A stretch of 64,000 nt of DNA from Thermoplasmatota archaeon. GTDB lineage: Archaea; Thermoplasmatota; Thermoplasmata; UBA10834. The notes beneath the pieces are model-generated. The model worked only from the letters and a program-made list of their open reading frames with translations, ran no database searches and was not told where the DNA came from. Shown here in pieces: positions 33,562 through 63,919 of the stretch (positions are counted from its first letter, which is position 1; each line of letters opens with the position of its first letter). The position numbers and the translations under genes were made by a program. The DNA lies in NCBI GenBank assembly GCA_018818785.1, contig JAHIRF010000002.1, forward strand, positions 261,874 through 325,873, read 5' to 3'.

Positions 33562-35501
33562 ATTATCTTGACGAAGGTCGAGTTGAAGGCGGAGTTCTGC
33601 CCGTACTTCTGCACGAAATCCGTTGTGACGAAGTTGACGTTCTTGCCGCCACACAATTTAGGCCACAGCACGGAATATGTCACCAGAACCCCGGGAAGGA
33701 CACTGTCAGAGGTCTCGCAGGTCACGGACCATTCGTCGAATTCGTTCTTGAGAGTGATCATAGACCCGCTCTCGATGTTCTCCTCGAGGGCATCCTTCTC
33801 GCTGATGTATACCACGGGTCTGATGTCTGGCCATCGGAGATGATACTGGGACCTTACGAGGAATTTGTGCACTGGTGAAAGCAGGATGAATGGCTGCGTT
33901 CTTCGCACCTCTGCATGAACGGGCAATCCGCCCAAACCCTCGGCTTCTGCGGCAGCGGAAAATAGCTCGATCTTCCGAGTAGGCGTGCTGTAAACCGACC
34001 TGTTCGGGACCTTCATCCTCAAGAAGCCTTTCTTCGTCAGGTCCTCGAACTTGCCTTCGACGGACTTGCTCTTCGATAACAGCATGCGTGCGACCTTCTC
34101 GTCCTCCTCGAAGAGTTCCTTGGTTTGCAGGTTCATGATCTTTGCGAGTGATCTGAAAACATCACTGTTGGACCTGGCTTCGCCTATCGGTTCGATCGCT
34201 TTCTCGTTTATCGAGAGGTAATTGTGGAGATACGAGGTGTGGATATCGAAATGTTCGAAGAAGCTGGTTGCAGGGAGCACGATATCTGCATGGTCCGCCG
34301 TATCGGTCATGAACAGATCGTGAACGACAGTGAATATGTCCTTCTTCATGAAGCCGTCCCGCAGCAGTCTCTGGTTGGGCAGCGTTGCCAGCGGATTGGA
34401 ATTGTATACGAACATCATCTTTATCTTGTTCGACTGGAGGGTACGACCGATGTCCACCATGTTATGCATCACACGCATCCGAGTACGGAGTGAGGCGCCC
34501 TCCAGATAATCCATGTCGAAATCGCCTAGGTCAGTCGAGTAATAGAATCCGCGGTTCTCACCTATCAAGGCGGGCAGTATGCTGATCGCACGGACCATCT
34601 CACCGCCATTCCTATGGCGCTGCATCCCGTATCCAATCATTATGCAGTTTGGTCGGAGGGATACGAAATCTCCGATGAAATCCTCGACCTCTCGAGTCTT
34701 AAGACCAGTCGTCTTGCAGATCTTGGTCATATCATACTTGCTGGCCGCGCCCACTAACCTGTCGAAACCAGTGGTGTTCTGATCCAGGAAGACTTCATTG
34801 CACAACCTGTTCTCGATCAGATGGTTTATGATACCAAGCGCGAGTGCCGCATCAGTGGTCGGTTTGATCTGCAGATGTGTCCCAAGTTCAGTCGTGGCTG
34901 ACTTCACGGGATCGATGATGTATATCTTCGTGCCGCACTTCTTGGCGCGCTTGAGCATCTCGAATGTATGAGCACTACTCCATGCAGGGTTCATTCCCCA
35001 CAGCACAATGAGTCTGCATTTCTCGATCTCATCAGGAAGCATTCCAAGTGTGGAACCATAGACGATCTCAAGAGCCTTCTCTCCTGCACGAGAGCAGATG
35101 GTATGCGACACCCTAGATGCCCCGATGACATTGAAGAATCTGGTCGGAAAATATCTCTGGACCAGGCCCATAGTTCCAGCGTAATCGAATTGGAGAATCG
35201 ATTCCGGGCCATGCCGGAGAGATATCTCCCGAATATTCTCAGCTATCTCTTTTAGAGCGTCGTTCCAAGTGATCTCCTCGAACTTACTCGCACCCTTCTC
35301 GCCGGTTCTTCTGAGAGGATACAGGATCCGCTGTCTCGAGTACACATATTGTGAGATATTCCGTCCTTTAGGGCACAATAGATCGCCGGTGAACGGATGC
35401 TTCTTATTGGGTTCTGTCGAGTGCAACTTCCCATTCCTGACTCTCGTTACGATTGCGCACGTGTCATAACAATCTCTGGGGCAAGTGTTGAAGATGAACA
35501 A
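33558..35501 (-). CDS. Molybdopterin (bis-MGD) oxidoreductase
   Basis: About 647-residue catalytic subunit of the DMSO-reductase superfamily. An N-terminal 4Fe-4S site is formed by CPRDCYDTC plus a downstream CPKGR motif. The bis-MGD domains follow (LIVLWGMNPAWSSAHTFE, MIGYGMQRHRNGG, MFVYNSNPLATLP), then the C-terminal DUF-like beta domain (SGSMITLKNEFDEW). HTICSRAG is the best candidate for the Mo-ligand region. No beta or gamma subunit, signal peptide or TAT motif is present, so it is cytoplasmic and orphan; substrate unknown. TTG 35501 is preferred because GGAGG lies 7 nt upstream and because the in-frame ATG at 35558 falls inside the TATA box. Confidence 0.87.
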   Translation of the reverse strand: MFIFNTCPRDCYDTCAIVTRVRNGKLHSTEPNKKHPFTGDLLCPKGRNISQYVYSRQRILYPLRRTGEKGASKFEEITWNDALKEIAENIREISLRHGPESILQFDYAGTMGLVQRYFPTRFFNVIGASRVSHTICSRAGEKALEIVYGSTLGMLPDEIEKCRLIVLWGMNPAWSSAHTFEMLKRAKKCGTKIYIIDPVKSATTELGTHLQIKPTTDAALALGIINHLIENRLCNEVFLDQNTTGFDRLVGAASKYDMTKICKTTGLKTREVEDFIGDFVSLRPNCIMIGYGMQRHRNGGEMVRAISILPALIGENRGFYYSTDLGDFDMDYLEGASLRTRMRVMHNMVDIGRTLQSNKIKMMFVYNSNPLATLPNQRLLRDGFMKKDIFTVVHDLFMTDTADHADIVLPATSFFEHFDIHTSYLHNYLSINEKAIEPIGEARSNSDVFRSLAKIMNLQTKELFEEDEKVARMLLSKSKSVEGKFEDLTKKGFLRMKVPNRSVYSTPTRKIELFSAAAEAEGLGGLPVHAEVRRTQPFILLSPVHKFLVRSQYHLRWPDIRPVVYISEKDALEENIESGSMITLKNEFDEWSVTCETSDSVLPGVLVTYSVLWPKLCGGKNVNFVTTDFVQKYGQNSAFNSTFVKII

Positions 35502-35556
35502 TGGGTGTCCTCCGAGGCACACTCTGAGCGACTCTGGCAGATAATAGGCTACGACC

Positions 35557-35564
35557 ATTTATAC
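35557..35564 (-). promoter_or_regulatory. TATA box for the molybdopterin oxidoreductase
   Basis: GTATAAAT on the minus strand. It overlaps the in-frame ATG at 35558, so translation must begin further downstream; TTG 35501 with GGAGG is the first well-placed start. Confidence 0.6.
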
Positions 35565-46142: not shown

Positions 46143-46259
46143 GGAAACCTACCTACACATCGCATAGAAGGGTCAAGTAATTTACGAATCAGATAGAAAG
46201 CTCAAATGTGTCGATTACTTGCGCATACCCTGCATAAATATGAACCGGGGAGAAATCAA

Positions 46260-46267
46260 ATTATATT
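46260..46267 (+). promoter_or_regulatory. TATA box before heliorhodopsin
   Basis: ATTATATT centred about 21 nt before GTG 46285. A second TATA-like element (CATAAATATG) lies at 46232-46241. Both exclude the ATG codons at 46219 and 46240 and make GTG 46285 the first usable start. Confidence 0.45.
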
Positions 46268-46284
46268 CCCTTTATCAATCAAGT

Positions 46285-47073
46285 GTGGGTGGAAATCTGG
46301 AGGAATCCGTTAAGGAGCCTAGATTCATTGGCCTGAGGAAATTCAACATCGCAATGGGCTTTCTGCACCTCATCCAAGGGGCGTTGATGCTCTGGTTGAG
46401 CAAAAGCTCATCGTTACCCATCAATCTCACTCTCCTGCATTATGATCCTGTCACGGAGACCATAAACTCCCAGACGGATACACTCATCAACCTCCAACTT
46501 GGGCCTATGATCGCATCGTTCCTGTTCATTTCTGCGATCGCTCATTTCGCTGTATCCTCTCCCAGAGGATATCCATGGTACGTCAAGAACCTGAAGGAAG
46601 GAATCAACTACGCCAGATGGTATGAGTACGCTGCAAGCTCCTCAGTCATGGTGATCGTCATTGCGATGCTATGTGGCATATTCGAACTCTCCAGCTTGAT
46701 ACTCATATTCTCATTGAATGCGACGATGAACCTGTTCGGCCTGATGATGGAACTCCACAACCAGACGACGAAGCGTACGAATTGGACTTCATACTTATTC
46801 GGATGCTTTGCGGGACTGCTTGTGTGGATAGTATTGGGGATCTATTTCTTCGGAGCGCTCCTAGGATCCGGGGATTCAGTGCCGACCTTCGTGTATTTCA
46901 TATTCATATCGCTTGCGATCTTCTTCAATGTGTTCGCGGTGAACATGGTCCTGCAATACAGAGCGAAAGGGAAATGGAAGGACTATCTCCATGGAGAGAG
47001 AGTCTACATCATCCTCAGCCTCGTTGCGAAATCCGCATTGGCATGGCAGGTGTTCGCTGGGACCCTCCGATGA
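46285..47073 (+). CDS. Heliorhodopsin
   Basis: 262-residue seven-helix retinal protein of the heliorhodopsin family, which are inverted in the membrane relative to type 1 rhodopsins. The third-helix segment YARWYEYAASSSVMV contains the counter-ion Glu114 (codon 46624-46626), and the seventh helix SLVAKSALAWQVFAGTL carries the Schiff-base Lys249 (codon 47029-47031). These match Glu107 and Lys241 of heliorhodopsin 48C12. Proposed roles in the family are light sensing or regulation of a partner enzyme, not ion pumping. No retinal synthesis gene is in the window. It is divergent from the dimethylargininase-like gene. Confidence 0.93.
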   Translation: MGGNLEESVKEPRFIGLRKFNIAMGFLHLIQGALMLWLSKSSSLPINLTLLHYDPVTETINSQTDTLINLQLGPMIASFLFISAIAHFAVSSPRGYPWYVKNLKEGINYARWYEYAASSSVMVIVIAMLCGIFELSSLILIFSLNATMNLFGLMMELHNQTTKRTNWTSYLFGCFAGLLVWIVLGIYFFGALLGSGDSVPTFVYFIFISLAIFFNVFAVNMVLQYRAKGKWKDYLHGERVYIILSLVAKSALAWQVFAGTLR

Positions 47074-47201: not shown

Positions 47202-49274
47202 ATGTCAGATTCTTCGAAAGCCCCGGAAACGGGCACCAATGAGATTGATGAGAACAAGGAAAGCATCGCGGCCCCAAAGAAGGCCGGCATGGGCTCGACC
47301 GCCAAACTGATCGCCCTCGCAGTGATCGTCGTGCTTCTAGTTGCGGTGCCAATGGGATATATGCTTACTCAGAACACAGATGATGAACCTGAAGACGAAG
47401 AGACTCTGGTCACACTGGAGGGAAAGACCGCTACAGATGAATTGACTGCACCCGAACTTGCAGGAATGGACTATCTCGAGGAGGAGTCTTCCTACCAGAA
47501 CAGCTTCGGCAACTGGAAGGGGTTCGGAACCTACAGGGGTGTCGAACTTCGTGACCTCGCCGACCTGGTTGGCGGAATGGAATCAGGGGACATAATGACA
47601 GTGACAGCAGCTGATGGCTACGGTCAGAACCTCTCATACGATCAGGTCTATGCCGAGGGTGAGTGCCTTGAGATCCAGGGTCAGATAATCCTGGCATACA
47701 TGTTCAACGGCACGGATATCCCTGAATGGGAAAGCGGCCCGATGATTGCAGTCTTATCGCCGGACGGTGCATTCAGCAACGATGATCTGAACGAGACGGT
47801 ATCTGATGAGCCTGAATTCAGCTCGACCACATCAGCGGGATCCCTCTGGGTCAAGAACGTTGCATCAATAAAGATCACTACGATGGCCGAAGGCGCAACA
47901 GTGCTTACCATTACAAAGGATCAGACCTCAATCGACCTAACGATGGAGGAGCTCAATGATATGACCGCAACTACGGCTCCGGGGGGATTCAAGAAGACCA
48001 CTGGAACCATAGAAGGGCCATCCGAATTCACGGGAATACCTCTTACGGATTTCGTCGATCTGTTGTACGCAGGTACGGACTACAGCCTGGAGGTAGTCGC
48101 CACTGATGGTTACACGATGGCATATAGTTCAGGCCAAGTCGAGGACGGCACTTTCGCATACTACGACCCGGAGGACGGATCGCTCCTCGGAGAAGGAGAT
48201 TTCACGATGATCGTGGCCTATGCGCAGGACGGATTACCCCTGGAAGATATGGACCTGCGCATAGCCATTGTTGATGAATCGGGTCCGATAACCGATGGTC
48301 ACTTCTGGGCCAAGTATGTGAGATCGCTCACCATCCTTCCGTTCATGAAGGATTGGACACTCAACCTGAGCGGTGTGACGGACCTTCAGATCGACAGACA
48401 GACCTTCGAATCAGTCGCATCCTGCGAGTACCATGCTGCCTCATGGACCTTCGTGAACGAGACTGGAACCCACGAATACACAGGTGTCGCGCTCTGGACC
48501 CTCGTCTCTGCGGTCGATGGTGCAGATGGACCTGCCACCGACTACCTATTCAACGATCTGCTTGCGAAGGCGGGCTACAATGTGACAGTGGTGGCTTCGG
48601 ATGGATTTGGAGCCGACAGGCCATTCGACTCACTGCAGGTGGCAAGGAACGACACCCTCATAGTCGCGAACAGGCTCGATGGAGAACCACTCTCCGAAGA
48701 TGATGACGAATTCCCGCTCAAGCTCGTGGGTGATGGTCTGACGTCAGGTCAGAGGATCAAGTCCATCGCGAACATCTCGATCGTCGACATGCATGAAGTT
48801 CCGACGTGGACTCTGAATCTGACAGGATTGACGAGCGCGGTGATAACTGCTGAGACCTATGTTGCCACTTACTACTCAGGACTGCACGCGAAGAACTTCA
48901 CATACACAGACTACGGTGGGGTGCACGCAGTGTACTACAATTATACGGACAGCGAGGAAGTAGCGCACACTTACGCGGGTATTCCACTGTGGCTCCTGGT
49001 TGCAGTGATGGATGGAACGGACGAGAGCCACTACGAGCTGAACAGCACATTGGCCGCAGAAGGCTATGATATAGTGCTCACGGCTTCGGACAGCTATTCA
49101 GTGACAATAGACTCGGCAACGGCAGCGTTCAACGACACGCTCGTTCTCGCGTTCATGCTTGACGGGGAGATGCTAACCGATATGGCGCCTCTGAGGCTCG
49201 TGAACGAGTTCCTGCCGGGCTCGATGAAGATCAGCAACGTGGTGGACATAGACCTCGAGAACCTGCCAATCTGA
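47202..49274 (+). CDS. Membrane-anchored protein with four sulfite-oxidase-fold-like repeats
   Basis: 690-residue exported protein. A cytoplasmic N-terminus of about 32 residues precedes one membrane helix (about 33-55, KLIALAVIVVLLVAVPMGY). The exterior holds four repeats at about 69-226, 234-379, 384-527 and 534-690. Each has a Y-x-G-V/I-x-L-x-x-L motif, a V-x-A-x-D-G-Y/F motif and a closing strand with KN/KS-V/I-x-x-I. This resembles the oxidoreductase molybdopterin-binding (SUOX) fold, but no metal-ligand Cys is conserved across repeats. GGGAGGAG at 47188-47195 sets the start. It opens the ECF locus and may bind the substrate outside the cell. Many N-x-S/T sites suggest glycosylation. Confidence 0.82.
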   Translation: MSDSSKAPETGTNEIDENKESIAAPKKAGMGSTAKLIALAVIVVLLVAVPMGYMLTQNTDDEPEDEETLVTLEGKTATDELTAPELAGMDYLEEESSYQNSFGNWKGFGTYRGVELRDLADLVGGMESGDIMTVTAADGYGQNLSYDQVYAEGECLEIQGQIILAYMFNGTDIPEWESGPMIAVLSPDGAFSNDDLNETVSDEPEFSSTTSAGSLWVKNVASIKITTMAEGATVLTITKDQTSIDLTMEELNDMTATTAPGGFKKTTGTIEGPSEFTGIPLTDFVDLLYAGTDYSLEVVATDGYTMAYSSGQVEDGTFAYYDPEDGSLLGEGDFTMIVAYAQDGLPLEDMDLRIAIVDESGPITDGHFWAKYVRSLTILPFMKDWTLNLSGVTDLQIDRQTFESVASCEYHAASWTFVNETGTHEYTGVALWTLVSAVDGADGPATDYLFNDLLAKAGYNVTVVASDGFGADRPFDSLQVARNDTLIVANRLDGEPLSEDDDEFPLKLVGDGLTSGQRIKSIANISIVDMHEVPTWTLNLTGLTSAVITAETYVATYYSGLHAKNFTYTDYGGVHAVYYNYTDSEEVAHTYAGIPLWLLVAVMDGTDESHYELNSTLAAEGYDIVLTASDSYSVTIDSATAAFNDTLVLAFMLDGEMLTDMAPLRLVNEFLPGSMKISNVVDIDLENLPI

Positions 49275-49282
49275 GTCAAAAC

Positions 49283-50779
49283 ATGAAAAACTCAAAGAGA
49301 AGCAAGATCGCCCTGATGATCGGCTCGATAGCCGTAGCATGTCTGCTATTGGCATCGATCACCGTGCTCCTGCGCATCGACGATGAAGGAGTAGATATCA
49401 CTGGAGGCACCTTGCTTTCTGAAAACTCAAACAGGGTCATAGTCAGGTGCCTCTCTCCTGACGTGACCCTGTCACTCCGAGGATTTTCGGGAGAGGTGAT
49501 TTTCACAAATTGCGTTCCGGACGCCCAGGTCTTGGGCTTTGACGGCGCGATATCACGTGAGGGTATGAACATATCATTCGTGGTTGATGGAGGCGATGGC
49601 CAATATCAGTTGAACTCTCCGCACAAGACGGATTTCTGCTTTGCAGTCCTTGGAGACAGTCAGGGATTCAACAACATCTTATCGGAAGCCCTCCGAAATC
49701 TGGAGGATTGCGAGTTTGTCATCCATTGCGGGGATATGACACCATCGGGAATGCCAGAGGAATTCGACTCGCTCCAATCAGCGTTCGATGAATCGCCAGC
49801 ACCGGTATACACGACTCCAGGAAACCATGATGTGAAGAACAATGGTAGTGTGGAGTATCAGAATCGCTACGCGCCGCTGTCATATTCATTCGAATATTCA
49901 GGGATAACATTCGCGATTGTCGACTCGTCCGACCTCAACATATCCGAGGAGGAGATAGCATGGATGGAAGATGTCTTCGAGGATGCGGACAGAAAGGTGA
50001 TCGTCACCCATGCACCATGCTACGACCCATATACTGACAATCACACACTTGATCCATCGTCGTGCGAAAGATTCCATGAATTTGTGCTCAGTCGAGGGAT
50101 AGACGCAGTATTCGCTGGCCATGTCCATGCATTCGACTATCTCAGGATTGAAAACTCAGATTTTATAATCACGGGTGGCGCGGGAGCGTCTCTGGATAAT
50201 GGGACCCATCATTTTGTGATTGTCACAGTCTCGACCTCAGGGTTCGCCTATGAGAAAGTCGACATCTTCGGCATCAATCAGACCGGCGAGGGAATAACAT
50301 TGGTTGCCAAGAACGGCATACAGTCGAACTTAACATATGATGATCTGAAGGCGATGACACCAGTCCATCTGTATTCATCATACGAGAATCTCTTCGGCAA
50401 TATCGGAGGACAGGGATTCTATACAGGAGTCCGAATCTCGGACCTGATTTCGATGATCGGAGGCATGGACGATGGAGATATCCTACGGATCACTTCCACT
50501 GACGGATTCTTCCAGGATTTCGGATACCTCAATGTCTACCCCAATGAGACTTGGTTTGATCTGCAAGGGTTCATGACACTGTCGTTCGAGTACGAGGGAA
50601 CGGAGATACCAGATTGGCAGGACGGACCCAGGTTGTCGATGCTTCCCAGTGATGGATTTTACAGCAACTCGGATTGCGAGATAACATCATACGAAGGTCA
50701 GGGATATGACATCTATCCCTCTGCTGGCTCAAGGTGGGTTAGGAATGTGAGCGCCGTCTCGATTCTTGACGGGGTGTGA
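49283..50779 (+). CDS. Exported metallophosphoesterase with C-terminal SUOX-fold-like domain
   Basis: 498 residues. An N-terminal signal anchor (about 9-30) precedes a calcineurin-like phosphoesterase domain (about 115-330) with GDSQ (124-127), HCGD (148-151), GNHD (180-183), His243 in VTHAP and GHVH (279-282), so the two-metal site is complete. Residues about 340-498 form one copy of the domain found four times in the preceding protein (GQGFYTGVRISDLISMIGG, SRWVRNVSAVSI). It starts 8 nt after that gene and overlaps the S-component gene (GTGA). It could dephosphorylate a substrate before uptake; this is inferred from context. Confidence 0.85.
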   Translation: MKNSKRSKIALMIGSIAVACLLLASITVLLRIDDEGVDITGGTLLSENSNRVIVRCLSPDVTLSLRGFSGEVIFTNCVPDAQVLGFDGAISREGMNISFVVDGGDGQYQLNSPHKTDFCFAVLGDSQGFNNILSEALRNLEDCEFVIHCGDMTPSGMPEEFDSLQSAFDESPAPVYTTPGNHDVKNNGSVEYQNRYAPLSYSFEYSGITFAIVDSSDLNISEEEIAWMEDVFEDADRKVIVTHAPCYDPYTDNHTLDPSSCERFHEFVLSRGIDAVFAGHVHAFDYLRIENSDFIITGGAGASLDNGTHHFVIVTVSTSGFAYEKVDIFGINQTGEGITLVAKNGIQSNLTYDDLKAMTPVHLYSSYENLFGNIGGQGFYTGVRISDLISMIGGMDDGDILRITSTDGFFQDFGYLNVYPNETWFDLQGFMTLSFEYEGTEIPDWQDGPRLSMLPSDGFYSNSDCEITSYEGQGYDIYPSAGSRWVRNVSAVSILDGV

Positions 50780-51858
50780 CCAGGATGAAATATCACTTCA
50801 CAACGAAGGACCTGGTCACGATAGCACTCCTGTCCGCGCTTGGCGGTGTGCTATCGACATATGTGGGTTATCTCGGCAACATGGTGAATCACATTGTCGG
50901 AGTTCCGTTCGGGGCAGGCCAGTTCCTTTCGGGATTGCATGTCATCTGGATCATGCTGGCAATCGCCCTGACGAGAAAGAAGGGCGCGGGCACCGTGACT
51001 GGACTCGTCAAGGGCATAATCGAACTGTTCATGGGGAGCACACACGGGATCGTCATAGTCGTGGTCTCCATGATGCAAGGTATCATCCCCGACATGGTGA
51101 TGTTCAAGGATAGCACTAAATCCGATCGAAACATCTACGCATACACATTCGCAGGAGGGCTATCCGCAGCAACCAATGTCGTGGTTTTCCAGATATTCTT
51201 CTTCGCTGGAATCCCGATCATACTCATCGCAATGTTGTGCATGTTGGCATATGCATCAGGGATGATATTCGGCGGATGGCTCGTGCTCCAAATGCTGGAT
51301 ACATTGGAGACATCGGGAATCGTCCGCGGACGAAAACCGATAATAGTGGATTCACCCGAATTTGATGAGAAGGCGTATCTGGAGCAGAAGGGGAAGAAGA
51401 AGAAGGCCATCGCAGCGATGTCGGTTGTGGTCGCGTTCCTTGCAGTGTTCGCCATCGGGGGAGTATATTATTACATGTTCGTTTTCGTCCTGCCAGGTTC
51501 GGATACCATTGAAATAACCGGCGATGTGCAGAACCCATATGATTTCAGGTACAGCGATTTCGAGAACCAGGAGGTCACGATCAACGCCGAACTCATAGGC
51601 TCGGTGACTTATGTAGCACCCAAGAACTATACGGGTGTGCCCATCAACATCATAATCGAAGAGTCGTCTCCTGGGGATGATGCTTCAGATGTGGTCGTCT
51701 GGGGAAGTGACGGCTACACAGTGGTCTTCTCATTTGTGAACGTAATGTCAGATGACAATCTAATACTGACCGCGGAAGATGACATCTATACGCTGGTAGC
51801 TGCTGAATATGAAGGTGCGTATTGGGTCGAGGACGTCGTCAAGATCGAAGTGAGGTAG
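50776..51858 (+). CDS. ECF transporter S-component (YkoE-like) with exterior SUOX-fold-like domain
   Basis: 360 residues. Residues 1-190 form a six-helix substrate-binding component similar to YkoE of thiamin/hydroxymethylpyrimidine ECF systems: FTTKDLVTIALLSALGG, GLHVIWIMLAIALTRKKGAG and LFMGSTHGIVIVVVSMMQG. A charged linker (about 190-212, KGKKKK) leads to an extra helix (213-236) and an outside domain (240-360) with NYTGVPINIII, VVVWGSDGYTVVF and YWVEDVVKIEV, the same fold as its neighbours. S-components are not normally fused this way. GTG 50776 overlaps the upstream stop; ATG 50785 is an alternative. Confidence 0.83.
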   Translation: MTRMKYHFTTKDLVTIALLSALGGVLSTYVGYLGNMVNHIVGVPFGAGQFLSGLHVIWIMLAIALTRKKGAGTVTGLVKGIIELFMGSTHGIVIVVVSMMQGIIPDMVMFKDSTKSDRNIYAYTFAGGLSAATNVVVFQIFFFAGIPIILIAMLCMLAYASGMIFGGWLVLQMLDTLETSGIVRGRKPIIVDSPEFDEKAYLEQKGKKKKAIAAMSVVVAFLAVFAIGGVYYYMFVFVLPGSDTIEITGDVQNPYDFRYSDFENQEVTINAELIGSVTYVAPKNYTGVPINIIIEESSPGDDASDVVVWGSDGYTVVFSFVNVMSDDNLILTAEDDIYTLVAAEYEGAYWVEDVVKIEVR

Positions 51859-53331
51859 ATGCTCGAAGTATCGCACCTGTGCGTCAGGTATGAGAATAGG
51901 TCCATTCCTGCAGTCCAAGACATATCCTTCTCAATCGGACACGGAGAGTTCGTCGTACTAGCTGGCGATAGCGCATCGGGCAAATCGACGGTCATGCAAG
52001 CCGTGTGCAGATTCATACCTGAGATCATCCCTGCAGAACTATCCGGCTCGATCAGAATAGATGGAGATGAACTAGTCGACCCAATTGATACTGCACGATT
52101 CATAGCAATGGTGCAGCAGGATCCAGAAACCCAATTCTGCACTGAAACGGTCGAGGAAGAGGTCGCGTTCGGTCTTGAGAATCTCAGGTTCAAGGAAGAA
52201 GATATCCGTCGTAGGGTCCACGAGGCGCTGGAGATGGTTAATGCGTCTCACCTGATAGATCAAAGCATATCCACTCTGTCTGGAGGGGAGAAGCAGAAGG
52301 TGGCAATCGCATCAATGCTCGCGCTCGACCCTAGAATATTGATACTGGATGAACCGACATCTAGCCTGGATCCGAAGTCCGTCGCTGAGGTCGTATCAGC
52401 CATCGAGAAGCTCAGAACGGTAAGGAGCATGACCGTGGTCATCGTAGAGCACAGGGTCCGTGGATTCATAGATATGGCGACTAGGATCATCCTTATGGAT
52501 CGGGGGAAGATAGTGCATGATTTCACGGTTGAGGATTTGAAGTTCGCAGGAATCTGTAAATCGCTGACAGGGGCTCGCAGTTATCCAAAGATTGTCCCAA
52601 GGGAGGGAACCGTCCTTACCATCAATAATCTCAGCTATCAGACTGGAGGAAAGAAGATACTGGATGACGTGGGGCTCACTGTGACGGATGGAGCAGTGGT
52701 CGCGCTCATGGGAGAGAACGGCGCAGGAAAGACGACTCTGCTGAAACACATCATGGGACTGATCAAGGTATCCTCAGGTTCAATAGAATTCAAGAACCAT
52801 CGCATAACCGAGAACAACCCAGTCGAACCATGGATACTGGGTAGAGACATCGGGTTGGTCTTCCAGAATCCGAATCACCAGATGTTCGAGAAGACTGTCG
52901 AGAAGGAGATCAAGTTTGGGCCAGAAAACTTCGGCACATCGATGGAAGAGGTTAAAAATACGATCGCGTCTTTTGAAAGCACCGAAGGAGTGCGACGATA
53001 CGTCCATCCCCAATGCCTAAGCTTCGGACAGAAGAGAAGAGTGAACATCAGGTCCGCGTCTGCCCATGGCCCTAGCATACTCCTCCTAGACGAACCCTTT
53101 GCTGGACAGGACGAGAATAACGTATCTAAAATCATGGAATTGCTTGCCAATCTTCAGAGATCCGGCAAGACCATCATTGTCGTGACTCACGACATTCAAT
53201 TCGCGAGAGGATTCTGCACAGACGCCCTGATCATGAGGCATGGCAGGGTAGTTGCAGATGGACCTATTGAGAAAATATCTGAAGAGTCTTGGCAGGATAT
53301 CCTTCCAAAAGGAGGGAAGATGGATGGATAA
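51859..53331 (+). CDS. ECF transporter ATPase, two fused ABC domains (YkoD/EcfA-A' type)
   Basis: 490 residues. The first ABC domain has Walker A GDSASGKST (36-44), signature LSGGEKQK (140-147), Walker B ILILDEPTSSLD and the switch His in VEHRV. The second has GENGAGKTT (285-293), a degenerate signature LSFGQKRR (387-394), ILLLDEPFAGQD and VTHDIQ. One canonical and one degenerate signature is common in EcfA-A' pairs. It begins directly after the S-component stop (TAG then ATG) and its 3' end overlaps the EcfT gene by 8 nt. It energises the importer from the cytoplasm. Confidence 0.92.
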   Translation: MLEVSHLCVRYENRSIPAVQDISFSIGHGEFVVLAGDSASGKSTVMQAVCRFIPEIIPAELSGSIRIDGDELVDPIDTARFIAMVQQDPETQFCTETVEEEVAFGLENLRFKEEDIRRRVHEALEMVNASHLIDQSISTLSGGEKQKVAIASMLALDPRILILDEPTSSLDPKSVAEVVSAIEKLRTVRSMTVVIVEHRVRGFIDMATRIILMDRGKIVHDFTVEDLKFAGICKSLTGARSYPKIVPREGTVLTINNLSYQTGGKKILDDVGLTVTDGAVVALMGENGAGKTTLLKHIMGLIKVSSGSIEFKNHRITENNPVEPWILGRDIGLVFQNPNHQMFEKTVEKEIKFGPENFGTSMEEVKNTIASFESTEGVRRYVHPQCLSFGQKRRVNIRSASAHGPSILLLDEPFAGQDENNVSKIMELLANLQRSGKTIIVVTHDIQFARGFCTDALIMRHGRVVADGPIEKISEESWQDILPKGGKMDG

Positions 53332-54073
53332 GCCTAACGCCATCAACCCCCTGGCCAAGTTCCTCATCTTGATAGTACTATCAGTCATGGTCTTTCAGAT
53401 TTCCGATCCCGCATACATGGTTCTGTTTGTGGCAGTGGTAATCGTGGCAAAGGTTCTGACGAATGCAAGGAGCACATTGACTAAAGGCGTCATGTGGTTC
53501 GCTTTCGCCATATTCCTCGCCCAAGTGATATTCAACCATTCGGGAGATATCGCCGTCACAATACTGTTCCTCGACGTCAATTGGGGAGGAATAGTAACAG
53601 GGGTTTTGATCGCTGGAAGGTTTCTGGCATTGATCACGATGTCATGGATATTCGTCGCCACGACAAGAGCCTCAGATTTCTCCTCTGCGCTCATAAGCTC
53701 CGGAATGCCATACAGATTCGCATACCTGCCGGCATTAGCGATGAGATTCGTTCCTGTGTTCCAGGTGGAATTGAGCGCGGTCCGCGACGCTCAGGTCACT
53801 AGAGGTTTGAGGTTGGACAAGAGCATCAAGGGGATCGTCCGGGCGGCACGATATACGACCATGCCGATGTTGATCTCAGCGATGTCGAAGGTCAACACTC
53901 TTGCAGCCTCTATGACGGGCAGAGGATTCGGCGCATATCCGAAACGTACATTGCTCAAGCCACTTCGCATGACCGTATGGGACATCTTACTGGTCATATC
54001 CTCTATCGTACTGGCAGTGGCAATCATCTATTTTTCCAGATGCTATGAGATCGACTTGCTCGTGCATGTCTAG
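53324..54073 (+). CDS. ECF transporter transmembrane coupling protein EcfT
   Basis: 249-residue membrane protein with about five to six helices. The two EcfT coupling motifs that contact the ATPases are visible in AVRDAQVTRGL and SMTGRGFGAYPKR, with the typical RFVPVFQVELSAV segment just before the first. A Shine-Dalgarno (GGAGG, 53311-53315) lies 8 nt upstream of ATG 53324; the frame is open from 53252. It completes the S, A-A', T set in the ykoE-ykoD-ykoC order. Its TAG stop shares CTAG with the convergent kinase-like gene. Confidence 0.92.
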   Translation: MDKPNAINPLAKFLILIVLSVMVFQISDPAYMVLFVAVVIVAKVLTNARSTLTKGVMWFAFAIFLAQVIFNHSGDIAVTILFLDVNWGGIVTGVLIAGRFLALITMSWIFVATTRASDFSSALISSGMPYRFAYLPALAMRFVPVFQVELSAVRDAQVTRGLRLDKSIKGIVRAARYTTMPMLISAMSKVNTLAASMTGRGFGAYPKRTLLKPLRMTVWDILLVISSIVLAVAIIYFSRCYEIDLLVHV

Positions 54074-54786
54074 AACTCGTCCCAAGAAGAAATCTTGTCG
54101 GCCCATTGGTCCATTTGGGCGCAATCGCTCCTGAATCCACCGTAGTATCTGAGTGCACTTGACACGGAGCCAGGAAGCTTTGACCTAATATCCGTCTTAA
54201 TTCTATCCTCATATCGAGCGACTATCATCCTGGCAAAATCGAACTTCGCATCAGTGAACATCGGTCTTGTGGCTATGACATATGCACATACCTGCCCCAA
54301 GTCTTCGATGGAATCGCCCTCATGGGATTCCTCGAGATCTATTCCGACTAGCATTCCGGGAGCATCGATGAAATTACGGAGAATCGAATCGCCTCTGACC
54401 AGCTTGAAATCGAACGCCTTGTGGAAAGAATATAGCCAGGACGCAACACGATCGGCGAGTTGGTCCAATGCCACATCACCCGCCCTTTGACACGCGCCTT
54501 CGAAACATGAATCAAATAACTCGGACGCATTATCTCCATCGACATGGCTCATGACGAAAGCGTTCTCCAACTGCAAGAGTGGTTCCGGAACAGATACCCC
54601 ATATCGTTTGCATCGGCAAAGAATCTCATATTCGTTGGCAATCGAACGCGCCCGGCCAGGTCCAGAGACTTTAGCCACGCATATCTTTCCTTCAAGATTC
54701 ACTTTGAACACTCTATTCTTCCTGCTGAAGAATGGTTCACCGACCCTCATCCGCTCCAGGTCGGCAATTGACAGATTATCGGCCAA
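54070..54786 (-). CDS. Kinase-like protein (Bud32/RIO/APH-type fold)
   Basis: 238 residues. Features of an atypical kinase are seen in order: a strand with KICVAKVSGPG (ATP-binding Lys), ANEYEILCRCKRYGVSVPEPLL (the helix C and alpha-D area), a hinge-like AFVMSHVDGDN, the catalytic loop LVRGDSILRNF with Asp and Asn, and the metal-binding Asp in VGIDLEES. The usual HGD is RGD. Small kinases of this kind modify tRNA-linked complexes (Bud32) or phosphorylate small molecules (APH family). It is adjacent and convergent to the ECF operon but probably not part of it. Confidence 0.7.
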   Translation of the reverse strand: MADNLSIADLERMRVGEPFFSRKNRVFKVNLEGKICVAKVSGPGRARSIANEYEILCRCKRYGVSVPEPLLQLENAFVMSHVDGDNASELFDSCFEGACQRAGDVALDQLADRVASWLYSFHKAFDFKLVRGDSILRNFIDAPGMLVGIDLEESHEGDSIEDLGQVCAYVIATRPMFTDAKFDFARMIVARYEDRIKTDIRSKLPGSVSSALRYYGGFRSDCAQMDQWADKISSWDEF

Positions 54787-57408: not shown

Positions 57409-58335
57409 TCAGAGGCTGCGGCAAAGAACCAGACTCAGCCTTATACGGTCGCCAAGCGCAGGATCAGAATAGGACCCGCTAATCATTCGACATCCAGGAA
57501 GATGTGAATCCAAAGAGTTCAGGATGGACTCCATTTCCTTGTCCCAGGGATCTGAAGAGGAATAGATCACGATGCCGGCTTCTGTCTCTGTGAGGTCGTA
57601 ATCGAACCAAGGCGAACTCAGCGCCTCGTTGACAACCCGCTCGACGCGCTCATCGCCACGTGCCATGCCTAGTCCGAACCGCCCATATGATGAATCACCG
57701 ATGACCCGCCCAAGTGGATCTATGTCCAATTTCGATGCAGTTGCGCACAATTCCATGACTGGTCGGAGCATGATACTGTTCATCAACGAGAAGGCTTTTG
57801 ACAAAGGCACGTTCGGCGCCAGAGTAGATAGCTGGTCGTTCCCGAATTCGACACAGATAGTAGATGTCTCGAGCAGCTCATCAAGGATCCGTCTGGCAAA
57901 CTCCCGTCTCCTGGTACTCTCCGCGGAGAACGGTGTCGCAGCCAGAACAATCTCAAGCGTCCCTTTTGACTGAGCGAGCGTAGAGAAAACCTTCGTCCCG
58001 AGACTCCCGCTGATACCCCCGAGACCGCACATCAAGAATGCCAGATCGGTATTGTTGAACAGATCCATCACCTCATGTCCGACTATCGACGGCATCTGTT
58101 TCAGTACGGATCGATCGGTATGATATGCTCCGACCAAACGATCCTGGCCAAGAAGGATTCTTCTCTCCGCACCCGAGCGATCCAGGTCAGCGCTCGATGT
58201 GGATATCGCAACCTTGGGGTATGACGCAGGCTCGACCATGTTGCACCCTGCACTCCCAAGACCGAAAAGCTTGGTTCTGGCATTTTGTCCATCAGGGAAT
58301 TGAGAGAATCTGAGCCTTTCCGCCATCCAGACCAT
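57409..58335 (-). CDS. Divergent FtsZ-family protein
   Basis: 308-residue tubulin/FtsZ-like protein. It opens with KLFGLGSAGCNMV (22-34), matching FtsZ's first nucleotide loop (G-x-G-G-x-G/A-x-N). The tubulin signature GGGTGTG is replaced by GGISGSL (106-112, in LMCGLGGISGSLG). The T7-loop region aligns as KLDIDPLGRVIGDSSYGRFGLG; FtsZ's N-x-D-x-x-D is D204-x-D206 with Gly at the second acidic position. The following ARGDERVERVVNEALSSP is FtsZ-like. It is shorter than FtsZ1/FtsZ2 and probably a third paralogue with weak or no GTPase activity. Single gene; a TATA-like GTTAAAATC lies upstream near 58352-58360. Confidence 0.8.
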   Translation of the reverse strand: MVWMAERLRFSQFPDGQNARTKLFGLGSAGCNMVEPASYPKVAISTSSADLDRSGAERRILLGQDRLVGAYHTDRSVLKQMPSIVGHEVMDLFNNTDLAFLMCGLGGISGSLGTKVFSTLAQSKGTLEIVLAATPFSAESTRRREFARRILDELLETSTICVEFGNDQLSTLAPNVPLSKAFSLMNSIMLRPVMELCATASKLDIDPLGRVIGDSSYGRFGLGMARGDERVERVVNEALSSPWFDYDLTETEAGIVIYSSSDPWDKEMESILNSLDSHLPGCRMISGSYSDPALGDRIRLSLVLCRSL

Positions 58336-58548: not shown

Positions 58549-60393
58549 ATGGCAGACTTGCAGACAGAATTTGTAATGAGCATGGCGCTCGTCATAGCGG
58601 TTGCTGCAGTCATCATAGTACTCTTCCACAGGTTCAAACAGCCTCTCATTCTGGGATATCTTCTAGCAGGGATCATCGTCGGTCCCTTGGTAACTTCGTC
58701 AAGGGAGTCCGTCGAGCTTCTGGCAAGACTGGGCATCATCCTGATCACATTCTCAATAGGGCTCGAATTCAACTTCAAGAAGCTGAGAGCGCTCGGCATA
58801 ACCGTGATAGCAGCCGCCACCCTGGAGATCCTACTCATGATAGGATTCGGATTCCAGTTAGGCCTTGCTCTGGGCTGGACTTCTCTCGAAGCGACCTTGT
58901 TGGGTGCTATCCTGTCAGTCGGGTCGACGATGATGATAGTTCGGGCGCTCATGGAGAGCGGAGGGTTCGAAAAGGAGCGGGCCAGACTCGTCATGGGTTT
59001 GCTTATCGTGGAAGACTTCGCTGCCGTATTGATACTCGCATCCGTATCCGGATTGGTATCGTCCGGGGGCATCGACCCGGGACAGCTAGGAGGATTACTT
59101 TTAAAGATGGGCGTGTTCGTGGCCGCCGCATTCGTATTCGGACTTGCTGTCGTTCCAAGGCTGGTCGATTACATTGGGAAGCAGCGCTCAGGTGAACTCC
59201 TCATAGTCACCGTGCTAGGGCTCTGCTTCGCCATGGCATACTTCTCCATAGCCATCGGATTCTCGGAGGCCATCGGAGCATTCGTCATGGGCGTGCTCAT
59301 ATCTGAATCCCGATTCGCATCGGATGTCATGAGGAAGGTGGAGCCGGTCAGGGATATTTTCGGAGCCATATTCTTCATAACCATAGGCATACTCGCCATA
59401 GGGATGTTGATGGAGCTGGACATACTCGCCAATCCATCTACATTCATCATCCCGGTTGTCATAATAACCGTCGTCTTCATCCTGGCAAAACTGTTCTCAT
59501 GCACACTATCTACATTTGCGGCAGGATTCGGTGCCAGGAATGCGATAGGTGCGGGATTGAGCATGGTCGCGATAGGAGAATTCTCCCTCATGATCGCAGC
59601 GGTCGCAGCGACGAACTCGAATATCCGTCCGGACCTGTATCCCATGATAGTCGTGGTGACAACCATCACTGCCTTGATCGTGCCGTACAGCGTCAAATCC
59701 ACAGAGAATATAATCAGAACGATAGAGACCAAGACACCAAGGTCTCTGGTAATCCTCGCGTCCTACCTGAATCTGGTCATGAGGAATCTCAGGAGACGCT
59801 CGCGCGCTTCCCGAAAGATATCGAACGAGATGAGGAACAACATATCGAGCATACTCGTGAACATAGTGATCGTCATCTCGGTCCTGGTAGGCCTTGGCAG
59901 TTTCATTCAGCGAGCAGAGGATTATGCGTACCTGGTCGGAGGACGGGCAGACCTCCTGACTCTGCTGGCGGTCACTGCATCCATAGTGCTCATAGTCCCG
60001 GCCATGTACAACACCTGGGTCAGAACGATCAGGTTCGTTGAGGTGTCGACGAGCGAGGCGATGCTCGGAACACGGTCGGGAGAGGAGATGGGGTACCAGG
60101 CTACTGCAAAAGCCCTCAGATGGACCATGCTCGGTCTGTATCTCGCGATCGGATTCGTAATCATATCACCTATAGTGCATTCTGTCGTCCAGGAGAACAT
60201 GGTGTTCTACATCCTGGTACTAGGGATGATCACGGCGGTCCTTGTCGCACTCTGGAACTCGGTTCAGACAGTCAACGACAAGATGTGTGAGGTTTTTGCA
60301 AGGACGGATCGGTCGACCCACGAATCGACATCATCCAAGGAATTGGCCGAGATATCGGAGATCATTGCCGCCATGGAGCGTGAGAAAGATTGA
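58549..60393 (+). CDS. CPA2-family cation:proton antiporter (Kef/KefB type)
   Basis: 614-residue membrane protein. About twelve N-terminal helices hold the antiporter domain (LGYLLAGIIVGPLV, IILITFSIGLEF, VMGLLIVEDFAAVLIL with the conserved Asp, then GAGLSMVAIGEFSLMIA). Past about residue 395 there is no TrkA-N domain; instead three to four more helices (about 425-450, 470-490, 530-575) precede an acidic cytoplasmic tail. The function is K+ or Na+/H+ exchange. The last helices are an unusual addition for the family. mre11 begins in its TTGA stop overlap. Confidence 0.87.
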   Translation: MADLQTEFVMSMALVIAVAAVIIVLFHRFKQPLILGYLLAGIIVGPLVTSSRESVELLARLGIILITFSIGLEFNFKKLRALGITVIAAATLEILLMIGFGFQLGLALGWTSLEATLLGAILSVGSTMMIVRALMESGGFEKERARLVMGLLIVEDFAAVLILASVSGLVSSGGIDPGQLGGLLLKMGVFVAAAFVFGLAVVPRLVDYIGKQRSGELLIVTVLGLCFAMAYFSIAIGFSEAIGAFVMGVLISESRFASDVMRKVEPVRDIFGAIFFITIGILAIGMLMELDILANPSTFIIPVVIITVVFILAKLFSCTLSTFAAGFGARNAIGAGLSMVAIGEFSLMIAAVAATNSNIRPDLYPMIVVVTTITALIVPYSVKSTENIIRTIETKTPRSLVILASYLNLVMRNLRRRSRASRKISNEMRNNISSILVNIVIVISVLVGLGSFIQRAEDYAYLVGGRADLLTLLAVTASIVLIVPAMYNTWVRTIRFVEVSTSEAMLGTRSGEEMGYQATAKALRWTMLGLYLAIGFVIISPIVHSVVQENMVFYILVLGMITAVLVALWNSVQTVNDKMCEVFARTDRSTHESTSSKELAEISEIIAAMEREKD

Positions 60394-61499
60394 GAATAAT
60401 GCACATCTCCGACACTCACCTCGGGTACAGCGCTTATTCGAAGGTCGATTCGCAGGGGATCAACCAGCGAGAGGCGGACTTCTACGACTCATTTAGACAG
60501 GCCATTGATAAGGCGATAGAGATGCGGCCTGATGTCGTCATCCACGCAGGTGACCTCTTCGATACGGTCAGACCACAGAACAGAGCAATTGACTTCGCGC
60601 TCAAGCAGCTCATCAGACTATCCGATGAGAAGATAAAGACCGTACTGATCTCTGGCAACCATTCCACCCCGAGGCTGAGGGAGACGGGCAACATCTTCAG
60701 GATATTCGAACATCTGGACCATATACATTCAGTCCACCAACCCGGGCTTCGGAAGATCGTGAAGGGCGATCTCACAATCCACGCAGTCCCCCATTCGGTC
60801 GCACCGCCGATGCACGAGTTCATATCGAATGCAACTCCGTCAGGAGATACGAAGTACAACGTGCTCGTCCTCCATGGAGGCATACTCGGATCGAACACAT
60901 ACAAGATGGATGAGTTCAACGAACAGGACGTGCCAGCATCATCCATATCCAAAGATTTTGACTATGTCGCATTAGGGCATTTCCACAGATTCACCGAAGT
61001 GAGGAGAGGGATGTACTATTCCGGATCGACCGAGAGATTAGGTTTTGGAGAGGTCGGTCAGAAGAAAGGTGTTATCGAAGTGGACCTTGACGAGGACAAG
61101 GCCATTTTCCACGAGTTGACAACGAGAGACATGATAGATATCCCATCGATAGACGCATCGGAACTCACCTCATCGGAGATATTGAAGGAGGCCAGGGAAA
61201 GAATCAGCGCATCCTCGATCGATGATAAGATCGTGAGACTGACTGTGAGCAAGGTCAAGCCAGATGCATATAGGGCTTTGGAGGTAGCGACTGTCAAAAA
61301 GCTGGGCTCTGCGGCGATGCATTTCGAACTGAAAGTGGGAAGGGTTGAGACCGAGGAATTCCGCGAAGTCTCAGGCGGGCACATCGGATCCCTTTCTCAC
61401 GAATTCCAGCAGTATGTGAACTCGCTCGAAGTGTCTGATAGCAAGAAGAGGAAGCTCGCGGAGATAGGTCTGCCATACTTCTCGGAGGATGAGGGATGA
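60390..61499 (+). CDS. mre11: DNA double-strand break repair nuclease Mre11
   Basis: 369-residue Mn-dependent nuclease with motifs HISDTHLGYSAY (metal Asp/His), VIHAGDLFDTV, LISGNHSTPR, VLVLHGGI and YVALGHFHRF, in the Mre11/SbcD order; a C-terminal capping domain follows. The TTG start at 60390 (TTGA overlap with the antiporter stop) gives exactly the usual N-terminal length (M-R-I-M-H-I-S-D); ATG 60399 would remove three residues. It overlaps rad50 by 4 nt (ATGA), as expected for the MR complex. Confidence 0.94.
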   Translation: MRIMHISDTHLGYSAYSKVDSQGINQREADFYDSFRQAIDKAIEMRPDVVIHAGDLFDTVRPQNRAIDFALKQLIRLSDEKIKTVLISGNHSTPRLRETGNIFRIFEHLDHIHSVHQPGLRKIVKGDLTIHAVPHSVAPPMHEFISNATPSGDTKYNVLVLHGGILGSNTYKMDEFNEQDVPASSISKDFDYVALGHFHRFTEVRRGMYYSGSTERLGFGEVGQKKGVIEVDLDEDKAIFHELTTRDMIDIPSIDASELTSSEILKEARERISASSIDDKIVRLTVSKVKPDAYRALEVATVKKLGSAAMHFELKVGRVETEEFREVSGGHIGSLSHEFQQYVNSLEVSDSKKRKLAEIGLPYFSEDEG

Positions 61500-63919
61500 G
61501 GATATCATACCTCGAGATTAGGAATTATCGGAGATTCCGGGAGGTCAAACTGGAGTTCCCGGATGGAGTCGTGGGCATACTCGGATTGAATGGCACTGGA
61601 AAGACCACGATCATAGAGGCGATAGCATGGGCGCTCTTCGGCAATACGGACGAAGTGGTGAGGACATCTCGAGAAGGCATCAGAAGCGCCGCCGCCGGAT
61701 CATCAGAATCCTGTTCAGTGAATCTCGAGTTCGAGCTAGGAGGCACCGATTACAGAATCGAAAGGGAGATGGGAGGTAAGAGCCTCACAATGAAGGTGGC
61801 TCTGAAATCAGGAGATACGGTCCTCGCTGATGGAGACAAGCCCGTGAAGAAGGCTGTCGAGAAACTGATCGGCATGGAACATAAATCGTTCTTCACTTCG
61901 GTCTTCGCGCGCCAGAAGGAATTGAACGCCCTCCAGAATGTCACGCCTGGGGAAAGGAAGAAAGTGGTTCTTCGGATGCTCCGAATCGATGGCGTTGATG
62001 ACATACTCCAGATCGCCAGAGCGGACAGAAGGGACGTGACAGAGAGGATCAAGGGCGCGGCGCAAACGCTGCATGACGAAGAAGGACGAGACCGGGAATC
62101 ATTGATAGGGAACAAGGTGCCGATTCTAGAGAAAGCTGTCGAAGAATCGGAACGGATGCTGAAGATCGTCGAGGAGAATGAGAGCAAGGCCAAGAAGGAC
62201 TTCGAGGGCACCAAGATCCGACGAGACGAGGCTAAGAAGGATTATGAAGCGTACAATTCGACCAATAAGGACCTCTCAGCGAAGACCTCTGCTCTGAAAG
62301 AATTGCGCAACAGAGAGGAGCGATTGCAGAAAAGGATCAATGAGGTGAAGGTCAAGCTGCAGAGACTTCCGGTGCTTGAGAAGGCGGAAACTGACTGGGG
62401 CAAGATTTCATCCATACTGGACGAATTGGAGGAATCCAGGCGGAAAGCCGAGCGTGCCAGACACCTTGCCAAGGATATAGAGACGGATGAGAAGTCGAAG
62501 GAACAGATGAGAGCGGAGGTCAGAGTGGCCGAAGAGGAACTCTCGAAGTTCCCTGATCTTGAAGGACAGGCGAAGAACCTGGACAGTTCCCGTGCAGAAT
62601 CAGAGAAGGCGAGAACGGAGCTCTCGCACAGCATTGGCGAACTCAAGGCAAAGAGAAAGGAACGTACCGATGAGGCGTTGAAGGACCGCAAGAAGCTCGA
62701 AGAGATCTCTAAACTCGGTTCAGAAGGCACCTGCCCGACCTGCGAGAGAATGTTGGAGGATGCCTATGAGCTCCTGATCAGCAAACTGACAGTGTCAGCG
62801 TCGGAGGCCGAAAGGGCTGCTGCCGAAGCGAAGGCAGAGATGGAGAAGGCAGATGCGAACCTGGCAGGCATCTCGAGAAGGGAGGATGCATTCAAGAAGA
62901 AAGCCTCTTGGATCGAGGCGGAGACTCGCAGGAGAGGACGCCTCGAGGCTCAAATAGAGGCGTCCCACAAGCAATCCAAGGCGATAGATGATAGAATAGC
63001 CTCCAAGAAGCGAGATCTCGAAGAGTTGGGTAAAATCGCATTCTCGGAGGACGAATATGCCAAGACGAAATCCGAGAGGGATCGGTTAAAACCCATGCAC
63101 GACGAGTTCGTCCGATTGAAAGGGACTCAGGAAGAGATGGTGCGTTCCGACCACGAGATGGGAGAGGTCAAGGATTGGATCGACAAGAATTCCATGGAAG
63201 AGCGCACTTTGAAGACCCTCATTTCAGAACTTGAACCAAAGAAAGAGCTTTATGAAGTCATTCTCAAAGATATTGATGAAAAAATGAACATTCTATCAAA
63301 AGCCAAAGACGAGGTGCGGAGACTCTCCGATTCGAGGGATAGTAGCAGATCCGAACTCCAAACGGCTAGGAAGGAGTTGGAGACCATCGAGAGGGTCAAG
63401 AAGAGCATAGAGATGGAGCGTACAAAGGCCGACGACCTTGCACTTCTAGAGGACGTCCTGATAACATTCAGGGATCACCTGATAGGCAAGGTGGCTCCGA
63501 CCCTCTCAGAACTCACGTCACACGTATTCGAATCCATGACAGAGGGCAGATATTCCGGCGTCGAACTGAACGACAGCTATGAGATCCAGATTGATGACCA
63601 AGGCACACTGTATCCGATCAGCAGGTTCTCAGGAGGGGAAGCTGACCTTGCAAACCTATCCCTCAGGTTGGCAATCTCAAGGATCATAGCGGAGAGGACC
63701 GGTGCCAACCCGATGAACTTCCTCATCCTGGACGAGATATTCGGATCGCTCGATCCCACTCGCAAGAGAAGTGTGATGGCAGCCCTGTCAAACCTATCGA
63801 CCCAGTTCAGACAGATATTCCTCATAACCCACTTAGAGGATGTCAAGGATCTGATGGCATCCATCGTTAAGGTGGAAGAACTGGAGGATGGGAGCAGTAC
63901 CGCGTTCCTGGTCTCGTGA
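61496..63919 (+). CDS. rad50: DNA double-strand break repair ATPase Rad50
   Basis: 807-residue SMC-like ATPase. Walker A is GLNGTGKTTIIEAIAWALFG near the N-terminus. Long coiled coils (about 190-400 and 430-650) flank the zinc hook CPTC (Cys413, Cys416). The C-terminal half has the signature SRFSGGEADLANLSLRLAI and Walker B FLILDEIFGSLDPTR. Length is in the archaeal range. With Mre11 it senses and trims DNA ends. HerA and NurA, which often accompany the pair, are not seen in the 80 nt left. Confidence 0.95.
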   Translation: MRISYLEIRNYRRFREVKLEFPDGVVGILGLNGTGKTTIIEAIAWALFGNTDEVVRTSREGIRSAAAGSSESCSVNLEFELGGTDYRIEREMGGKSLTMKVALKSGDTVLADGDKPVKKAVEKLIGMEHKSFFTSVFARQKELNALQNVTPGERKKVVLRMLRIDGVDDILQIARADRRDVTERIKGAAQTLHDEEGRDRESLIGNKVPILEKAVEESERMLKIVEENESKAKKDFEGTKIRRDEAKKDYEAYNSTNKDLSAKTSALKELRNREERLQKRINEVKVKLQRLPVLEKAETDWGKISSILDELEESRRKAERARHLAKDIETDEKSKEQMRAEVRVAEEELSKFPDLEGQAKNLDSSRAESEKARTELSHSIGELKAKRKERTDEALKDRKKLEEISKLGSEGTCPTCERMLEDAYELLISKLTVSASEAERAAAEAKAEMEKADANLAGISRREDAFKKKASWIEAETRRRGRLEAQIEASHKQSKAIDDRIASKKRDLEELGKIAFSEDEYAKTKSERDRLKPMHDEFVRLKGTQEEMVRSDHEMGEVKDWIDKNSMEERTLKTLISELEPKKELYEVILKDIDEKMNILSKAKDEVRRLSDSRDSSRSELQTARKELETIERVKKSIEMERTKADDLALLEDVLITFRDHLIGKVAPTLSELTSHVFESMTEGRYSGVELNDSYEIQIDDQGTLYPISRFSGGEADLANLSLRLAISRIIAERTGANPMNFLILDEIFGSLDPTRKRSVMAALSNLSTQFRQIFLITHLEDVKDLMASIVKVEELEDGSSTAFLVS

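Follow-up and report, generated by a model that had tools for sequence, protein, structure and literature searches.

What does an energy-coupling factor (ECF) importer carry when its substrate-binding subunit shares a sulfite-oxidase-like (SUOX-fold) domain with two exported proteins encoded just ahead of it? We met this question in a 64,000-nucleotide stretch of contig JAHIRF010000002.1 (the window; assembly GCA_018818785.1) from a Thermoplasmatota archaeon, whose genome comprises 1.97 Mb in 12 contigs and whose named relatives are uncultured Thermoplasmata. Five + strand genes at 47202-54073, each nearly touching, touching or overlapping the next, encode the two exported proteins, a YkoE-like S-component, a fused ATPase pair and EcfT, with the coordinates and families given in an earlier note made from the DNA letters alone. 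That note missed a converging kinase gene, whose end overlaps the end of the EcfT gene by four bases and which is part of the locus. The shared fold, an exchange with cofactor biosynthesis genes among relatives and riboswitches in bacterial counterparts make it likely, in our judgment, that the locus encodes a transporter that salvages the pyranopterin (molybdopterin-type) cofactor of tungsten and molybdenum (W/Mo) enzymes. Its parts are as follows.

47202-49274, + strand: protein 1, 690 residues, SUOX-fold repeat protein (PF00174, E 9e-17), exported or membrane-anchored, with a proposed role in capture
~47403-47891, ~47892-48347, ~48354-48791 and ~48804-49271, + strand: SUOX-fold domains D1, D2, D3 and D4 of protein 1
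49283-50779, + strand: protein 2, 498 residues, membrane-anchored metallophosphoesterase (PF00149, E 1e-15) with a C-terminal SUOX-fold domain
~49634-50272 and ~50282-50776, + strand: catalytic part and SUOX-fold tail of protein 2
50776-51858, + strand: protein 3, 360 residues, YkoE-family S-component (PF09819, E 2e-18) with six helices, a seventh helix (residues 198-236) and then a C-terminal SUOX-fold domain (~51493-51855)
51859-53331, + strand: protein 4, 490 residues, fused ECF ATPase pair (EcfA-EcfA', YkoD-like; TIGR04520 E 3e-106 and TIGR04521 E 7e-106, one per half)
53324-54073, + strand: protein 5, 249 residues, EcfT transmembrane coupling subunit (YkoC-like; PF02361, E 2e-28)
54070-54786, - strand: converging Bud32/RIO/APH-like kinase (weak RIO1 and APH matches)

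The earlier note had proposed that one domain of sulfite-oxidase fold occurs four times in protein 1 and once at the end of each of proteins 2 and 3, and had named unrelated folds as grounds for dropping the idea. Profile-profile comparison of ortholog alignments related D1-D4 and the two tails at a probability of 95.5-100 in all 15 pairs, with 96-100 among D1-D4 themselves, the closest pair being D1 and the phosphoesterase tail (38% identity). PF00174 scored above threshold in three stretches of protein 1, whose N-terminal membrane anchor we read from the sequence at residues ~33-55, and the model of the S-component matched sulfite dehydrogenases, YedY and PruR in Foldseek independently of its match to YkoE. 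Profile, structure and profile-profile comparisons thus agree on the PF00174 domain fold. This is the fold of the molybdoenzymes sulfite oxidase and YedY, but the domains of the locus are short and come in repeats or fusions. PruR (PDB 7kou, 7rkb), a periplasmic protein that binds free pterins (PMC13259868), likewise uses a non-enzyme SUOX fold outside the cytoplasm; PruR signals through DcpA, whereas here the domain occurs in repeats and as a fusion to both a transporter subunit and a phosphoesterase. The SUOX fold of the exterior domains points to a W/Mo pyranopterin cofactor. One residue may bear on the ligand more closely: Cys408 in D3 is invariant in 14 of 14 orthologues of protein 1, is also seen in the stand-alone SUOX proteins encoded at loci of Firmicutes and the Bipolaricaulota group, and lies ~20 residues ahead of a Y-x-G-V/I motif. 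To judge from the sequence, its position is compatible with that of the metal-ligating cysteine of sulfite oxidases, although alignments to known structures start after Cys408 and do not reach it. No conserved cysteine occurs in that region in D1, D2 and D4 or in the phosphoesterase tail.

We then compared the importer with cofactor biosynthesis across 150 genomes (G000 and 149 relatives), scoring MoaC as PF01967 and aldehyde ferredoxin oxidoreductase (AOR) as PF01314, which occur in 75 and 78 genomes, respectively. Full-length orthologues of the S-component (48-63% identity) were found in 24 genomes; all 24 encode AOR, 23 are missing MoaC, and MoeA is absent from the same 23. AOR-bearing genomes divide into 1 with importer and MoaC, 23 with the importer only, 38 with MoaC only and 16 with neither (Fisher p 4e-8, which overstates the evidence because the genomes are related and not independent samples). 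The host genome itself encodes AOR four times, and MoaC, MoaE and MoeA are all absent from it. The exchange recurs inside three families: in f1, G017 has the importer without MoaC and its congeners G004, G006, G013 and G018 show the reverse; in f2, G019 and G020 differ in the same way; and in genus g37 of f7, G063 and G084 carry the importer without MoaC, against G077, G091 and G103 with the reverse. In G091 one site holds moaA, moaE-moaC, moaB, moeA, a PIN-domain ATPase gene and wtpCBA for a tungstate ABC transporter (NCBIfam models), and in G084 the same flanks enclose only moaE and the PIN-domain ATPase gene. Gone from that site are moaA (looked for only there), moaC, moaB, moeA and wtpABC, suggesting that, at least in this genus, the cell can do without pterin synthesis, metal insertion and Wtp-type tungstate uptake, and that the imported compound already carries its metal. 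Of the importer genomes, G115 alone gave a match to WtpA, the one type of oxyanion transporter looked for, though several importer-free genomes also lack it. Overall, in these genomes the importer replaces biosynthesis genes while cofactor-using enzymes remain.

The locus extends well beyond close relatives of the host. A gene order conserved in no relative would have undone the earlier note's proposal; instead, about two dozen Thermoplasmata genomes preserve the order. Several families share the series of repeat protein, phosphoesterase, S-component, ATPases and T-component with the kinase converging on it, and other phyla have most of the set. An alignment query of genome contigs returned 128 relatives in named genomes (a single-sequence query gave no match), of which we fetched 80, from Thermoplasmata (largely genomes of the 150-genome set), Hermod-, Thor-, Heimdall- and Lokiarchaeota, Theionarchaea, Firmicutes and Bipolaricaulota. 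In these 80 loci a catalytic phosphoesterase is present in 20 of 22 from Thermoplasmata, 11 of 15 from Asgard archaea, 25 of 35 from Firmicutes and both from Theionarchaea, and kinase homologues and separate SUOX-repeat proteins are frequent. Archaeal copies stand apart from bacterial copies in the S-component tree, suggesting either an ancient system or one that established itself in both groups long ago. The importer was not found in viral contigs. G017 carries two separate copies of the locus (L040, L041).

Regulatory RNAs of the bacterial loci point in the same direction. The window gave no match to any Rfam family; the 35 Firmicutes loci contain 21 Moco-family (molybdenum cofactor) riboswitches (RF01055) and otherwise two tRNAs only. 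In 11 loci (L086, L099, L103, L114, L122, L123, L125, L126, L134, L136 and L137) the riboswitch sits immediately ahead of the leading gene of the importer operon; in other Firmicutes loci the genes that follow it encode SUOX-repeat proteins or oxyanion-binding ABC proteins. Stem P3 is missing in the four riboswitches that were aligned, and Regulski et al. associated P3-less members of this family with tungsten cofactor genes (PMC2408646). Separately, a Moco-family riboswitch in Anoxynatronum (L106:14227-15010) sits ahead of the gene for a small membrane protein of another kind (L106:14474-15010), which may be a second transporter linked to Moco.

The S-component itself belongs to the YkoE family. 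It matched YkoE (PDB 5edl) in phmmer (E 4e-5), and its AlphaFold model (pLDDT 88) had 5edl as best Foldseek match (target TM 0.79). PF09819, the YkoE fold and an operon that supplies its own EcfT and ATPases place the transporter in group I of the ECF class, together with YkoEDC, the thiamine transporter of Bacillus subtilis, which has the same S-component family and fold and a dedicated ATPase and T-component in its operon. Unlike YkoEDC, the locus has a seventh helix and an exterior SUOX domain on the S-component, a SUOX-repeat protein, an exterior phosphoesterase and a kinase gene, and its relatives carry riboswitches for the W/Mo cofactor rather than for thiamine pyrophosphate (TPP). Since the C-terminal helix of YkoE protrudes to the cytosol (PMC5037267) and a seventh helix follows it here, the SUOX-fold domain of the S-component presumably lies on the exterior. 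YkoE binds thiamine through Tyr46, Trp49, Glu77, Gln95 and Asp131 (PMC5037267). In 68 S-component sequences Glu77 corresponds to a fully conserved Glu83 and Gln95 to position 101 (Gln in 56, Glu in 12), but Trp49, Tyr46 and Asp131 are replaced by an invariant His55, Ala/Ser52 and Gln139, so that, with three of five ligands changed, the full thiamine site is not present. The two retained residues hold the aminopyrimidine of thiamine in YkoE. A pterin also has an aminopyrimidine edge, so their retention fits a pterin ligand but does not prove it.

Two further genes suggest handling of a phosphate. The model of the phosphoesterase (pLDDT 91) matches GpdQ, Rv0805 and purple acid phosphatases in fold, and its metal-site residues D125, D151, N181, H182, H243, H280 and H282 are conserved in 45 sequences. 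In the kinase, the residues needed for catalysis in the protein-kinase/APH fold are conserved (Lys39, Glu52, Asp133, Asn138 and Asp150); as a match to the KEOPS kinase Bud32 it falls far short, scoring 19.3 bits against a TIGR03724 cut-off of 125. Homologues of the locus-type kinase go along with the importer: importer genomes of f1 have a close one, whereas their importer-free sisters have a more distant paralogue only, and the importer-free, MoaC-bearing genomes of f7 have none. An exterior phosphatase paired with a cytosolic kinase suggests that the side-chain phosphate is taken off for passage and put back inside, which is the weakest step of our model. In G005 only the SUOX domain is left of the phosphoesterase gene (L037:9292-9798), although the kinase and all other parts of the locus are still there.

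From the gene content, the shared fold, the conserved catalytic residues, the riboswitch linkage in Firmicutes and the replacement of biosynthesis genes, we infer a ligand, its metal and phosphate state, its transport and the reactions of the phosphatase and kinase. SUOX-fold domains outside the membrane would bind the cofactor, and the exterior phosphoesterase would strip the terminal phosphate, or else a nucleotide, from it. Next, the YkoE-like S-component would carry the dephosphorylated cofactor inward, with transport powered by EcfAA'T, and the kinase would re-add the phosphate inside, trapping the cofactor for AORs and other W/Mo enzymes. In the host and many relatives the importer would thereby stand in for de novo cofactor synthesis. 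The loss of MoeA, joined in one genus by that of the tungstate transporter, makes it probable that the cofactor is imported with its metal in place. Whether many anaerobic archaea and bacteria, Asgard archaea included, use the intact, metal-loaded W/Mo pterin cofactor as a vitamin through dedicated uptake, along with loss of its synthesis, of metal insertion and even of tungstate uptake, is a stronger proposal, for and against which we see the case as evenly balanced.

Several observations weigh against salvage of this cofactor. PruR is thought to be too small for Moco (PMC13259868), and relatedness among the 150 genomes weakens the exchange statistic given above. Six importer genomes without moaC and moeA keep moaE (L142, L143, L144, L145, L152 and L153), which fits poorly with import of the intact cofactor unless MoaE serves repair, replacement of lost dithiolene sulfurs being one idea; MoaE was not seen in the f1 importer genomes. 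G115, an assembly of 64% completeness, combines the importer with biosynthesis. The 16 AOR-bearing genomes with neither MoaC nor importer (G008, G011, G015, G021, G040, G050, G058, G066, G073, G080, G087, G093, G105, G109, G111 and G117), some of them fairly complete (G050 89%, G011 88%, G008 87%), are candidates for incomplete assembly or for another cofactor route, and the importer does not account for every absence of MoaC. In importer genomes of Asgard archaea, Theionarchaea, the Bipolaricaulota group and related lineages, MoaC is found in 0 of 22 and AOR in 22 of 22, a pattern that comes with no importer-free control group, and Firmicutes importer genomes keep MoaC in 16 of 22 cases. As for phosphate handling, phosphoesterase and kinase are not significantly associated within the locus (p 0.14), and 10 of 42 well-covered loci lack the phosphoesterase.

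The retained moaE would suit a variant in which the same class of substrate enters as metal-free molybdopterin, or as a dephosphorylated or desulfurated breakdown product, and is repaired inside by the kinase, the retained MoaE and a hypothetical metal insertase. The phosphatase and kinase pair, which implies handling of the side-chain phosphate, and the W/Mo ABC transporter genes adjoining some Firmicutes importers would also suit it. We regard this variant as possible though doubtful, since 23 of 24 importer genomes have no MoeA, the syntenic site in the compared genus has lost moaB and wtpABC, and no MoaE was seen in f1 importer genomes. A different pterin, such as a precursor of folate or methanopterin, would also suit a SUOX fold, which binds simple pterins in PruR (PMC13259868), and the loss of Moco genes would then be a side effect of lifestyle; we think this very improbable given the Moco-family riboswitch directly upstream of the operon and the way in which importer and moaC trade places between close relatives, every one of which retains AOR.

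The riboswitches, the adjoining oxyanion-binding ABC proteins, the association with AOR and the loss of wtpABC could instead be read as signs of an ECF importer of the tungstate or molybdate oxyanion, with oxyanion-binding SUOX domains and a riboswitch that reports cofactor status. This reading is highly improbable: the loss of moaA, moaC and moeA, the phosphoesterase and the kinase would all be left unexplained, and the solved member of the YkoE family binds thiamine, an organic vitamin (PMC5037267). The earlier note had inferred a chain of capture, dephosphorylation and import for a phosphorylated nutrient, with a thiamin or pyrimidine phosphate as its example. The chain is plausible and supported, but its substrate is very probably wrong. 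Salvage of thiamin or hydroxymethylpyrimidine (HMP) phosphate would account for the YkoE fold, the kept Glu77, the Gln or Glu at the place of Gln95 and the S, ATPase and T make-up shared with YkoEDC (PMC5037267). ThiC, however, is present in nearly all genomes with or without the importer (the host and 26 of 28 others tested), no TPP riboswitch was found in the window or its relatives, three of the five thiamine ligands are changed and the MoaC/MoeA pattern finds no explanation, all of which leaves thiamin salvage extremely improbable.

Salvage of the pyranopterin cofactor would depart from the stated view that a cell in need of Moco has to synthesise its own (PMC9793310); passage of pterins across bacterial membranes has been called unknown (PMC13259868). 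A full-text literature search, its reach excluding preprints and most subscription papers, returned no ECF transporter for the W/Mo cofactor. In line with the earlier note, the papers searched describe no ECF system of this composition, nor any prokaryotic uptake of ready-made W/Mo pterin cofactor. The transporter is a new variant of group I ECF, and the uptake pathway that it implies is without a described counterpart in the searchable literature. ECF transporters for vitamin B12 and heme likewise scavenge a large metal-containing cofactor, but they use other S-component families and substrates (PMC5997447, PMC7299338) and are not known to have an exterior phosphatase or SUOX domains. Caenorhabditis elegans also takes up ready-made Moco from its diet; it is an animal, the cofactor is protein-bound and the mechanism of uptake is unknown (PMC9793310). 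If our reading is true, the W/Mo cofactor is a shared nutrient, which would help to explain anaerobes that bear tungsten enzymes without cofactor synthesis and would matter for culturing Asgard and Thermoplasmata archaea. The locus also offers concrete, testable candidates for the proteins that would capture, transport, dephosphorylate and rephosphorylate an unstable cofactor.

Two neighbouring genes deserve mention.

33558-35558, - strand: molybdopterin oxidoreductase, likely cofactor user (PF00384 E 2e-44, PF01568, PF04879)
46219-47073, + strand: heliorhodopsin, directly upstream of the importer (PF18761 E 8e-97)

The oxidoreductase has a dinucleotide-binding domain, in a host genome without MoaC and MoeA. 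We rejected a functional tie between heliorhodopsin and the importer: most importer carriers have heliorhodopsin elsewhere in the genome, and the two are close only in G000 and in two species of one f7 genus, where it lies on the other side. The heliorhodopsin gene is thus probably not part of the locus. PADLOC matches on the ATPases and the phosphoesterase are generic superfamily matches. Farther downstream, a second calcineurin-like phosphoesterase beside an SMC/Rad50-like ATPase (60390-63919, + strand) is probably Mre11-Rad50, and 57409-58335 (- strand) encodes a protein with a Tubulin/FtsZ-family GTPase domain (PF00091, E 5e-10).

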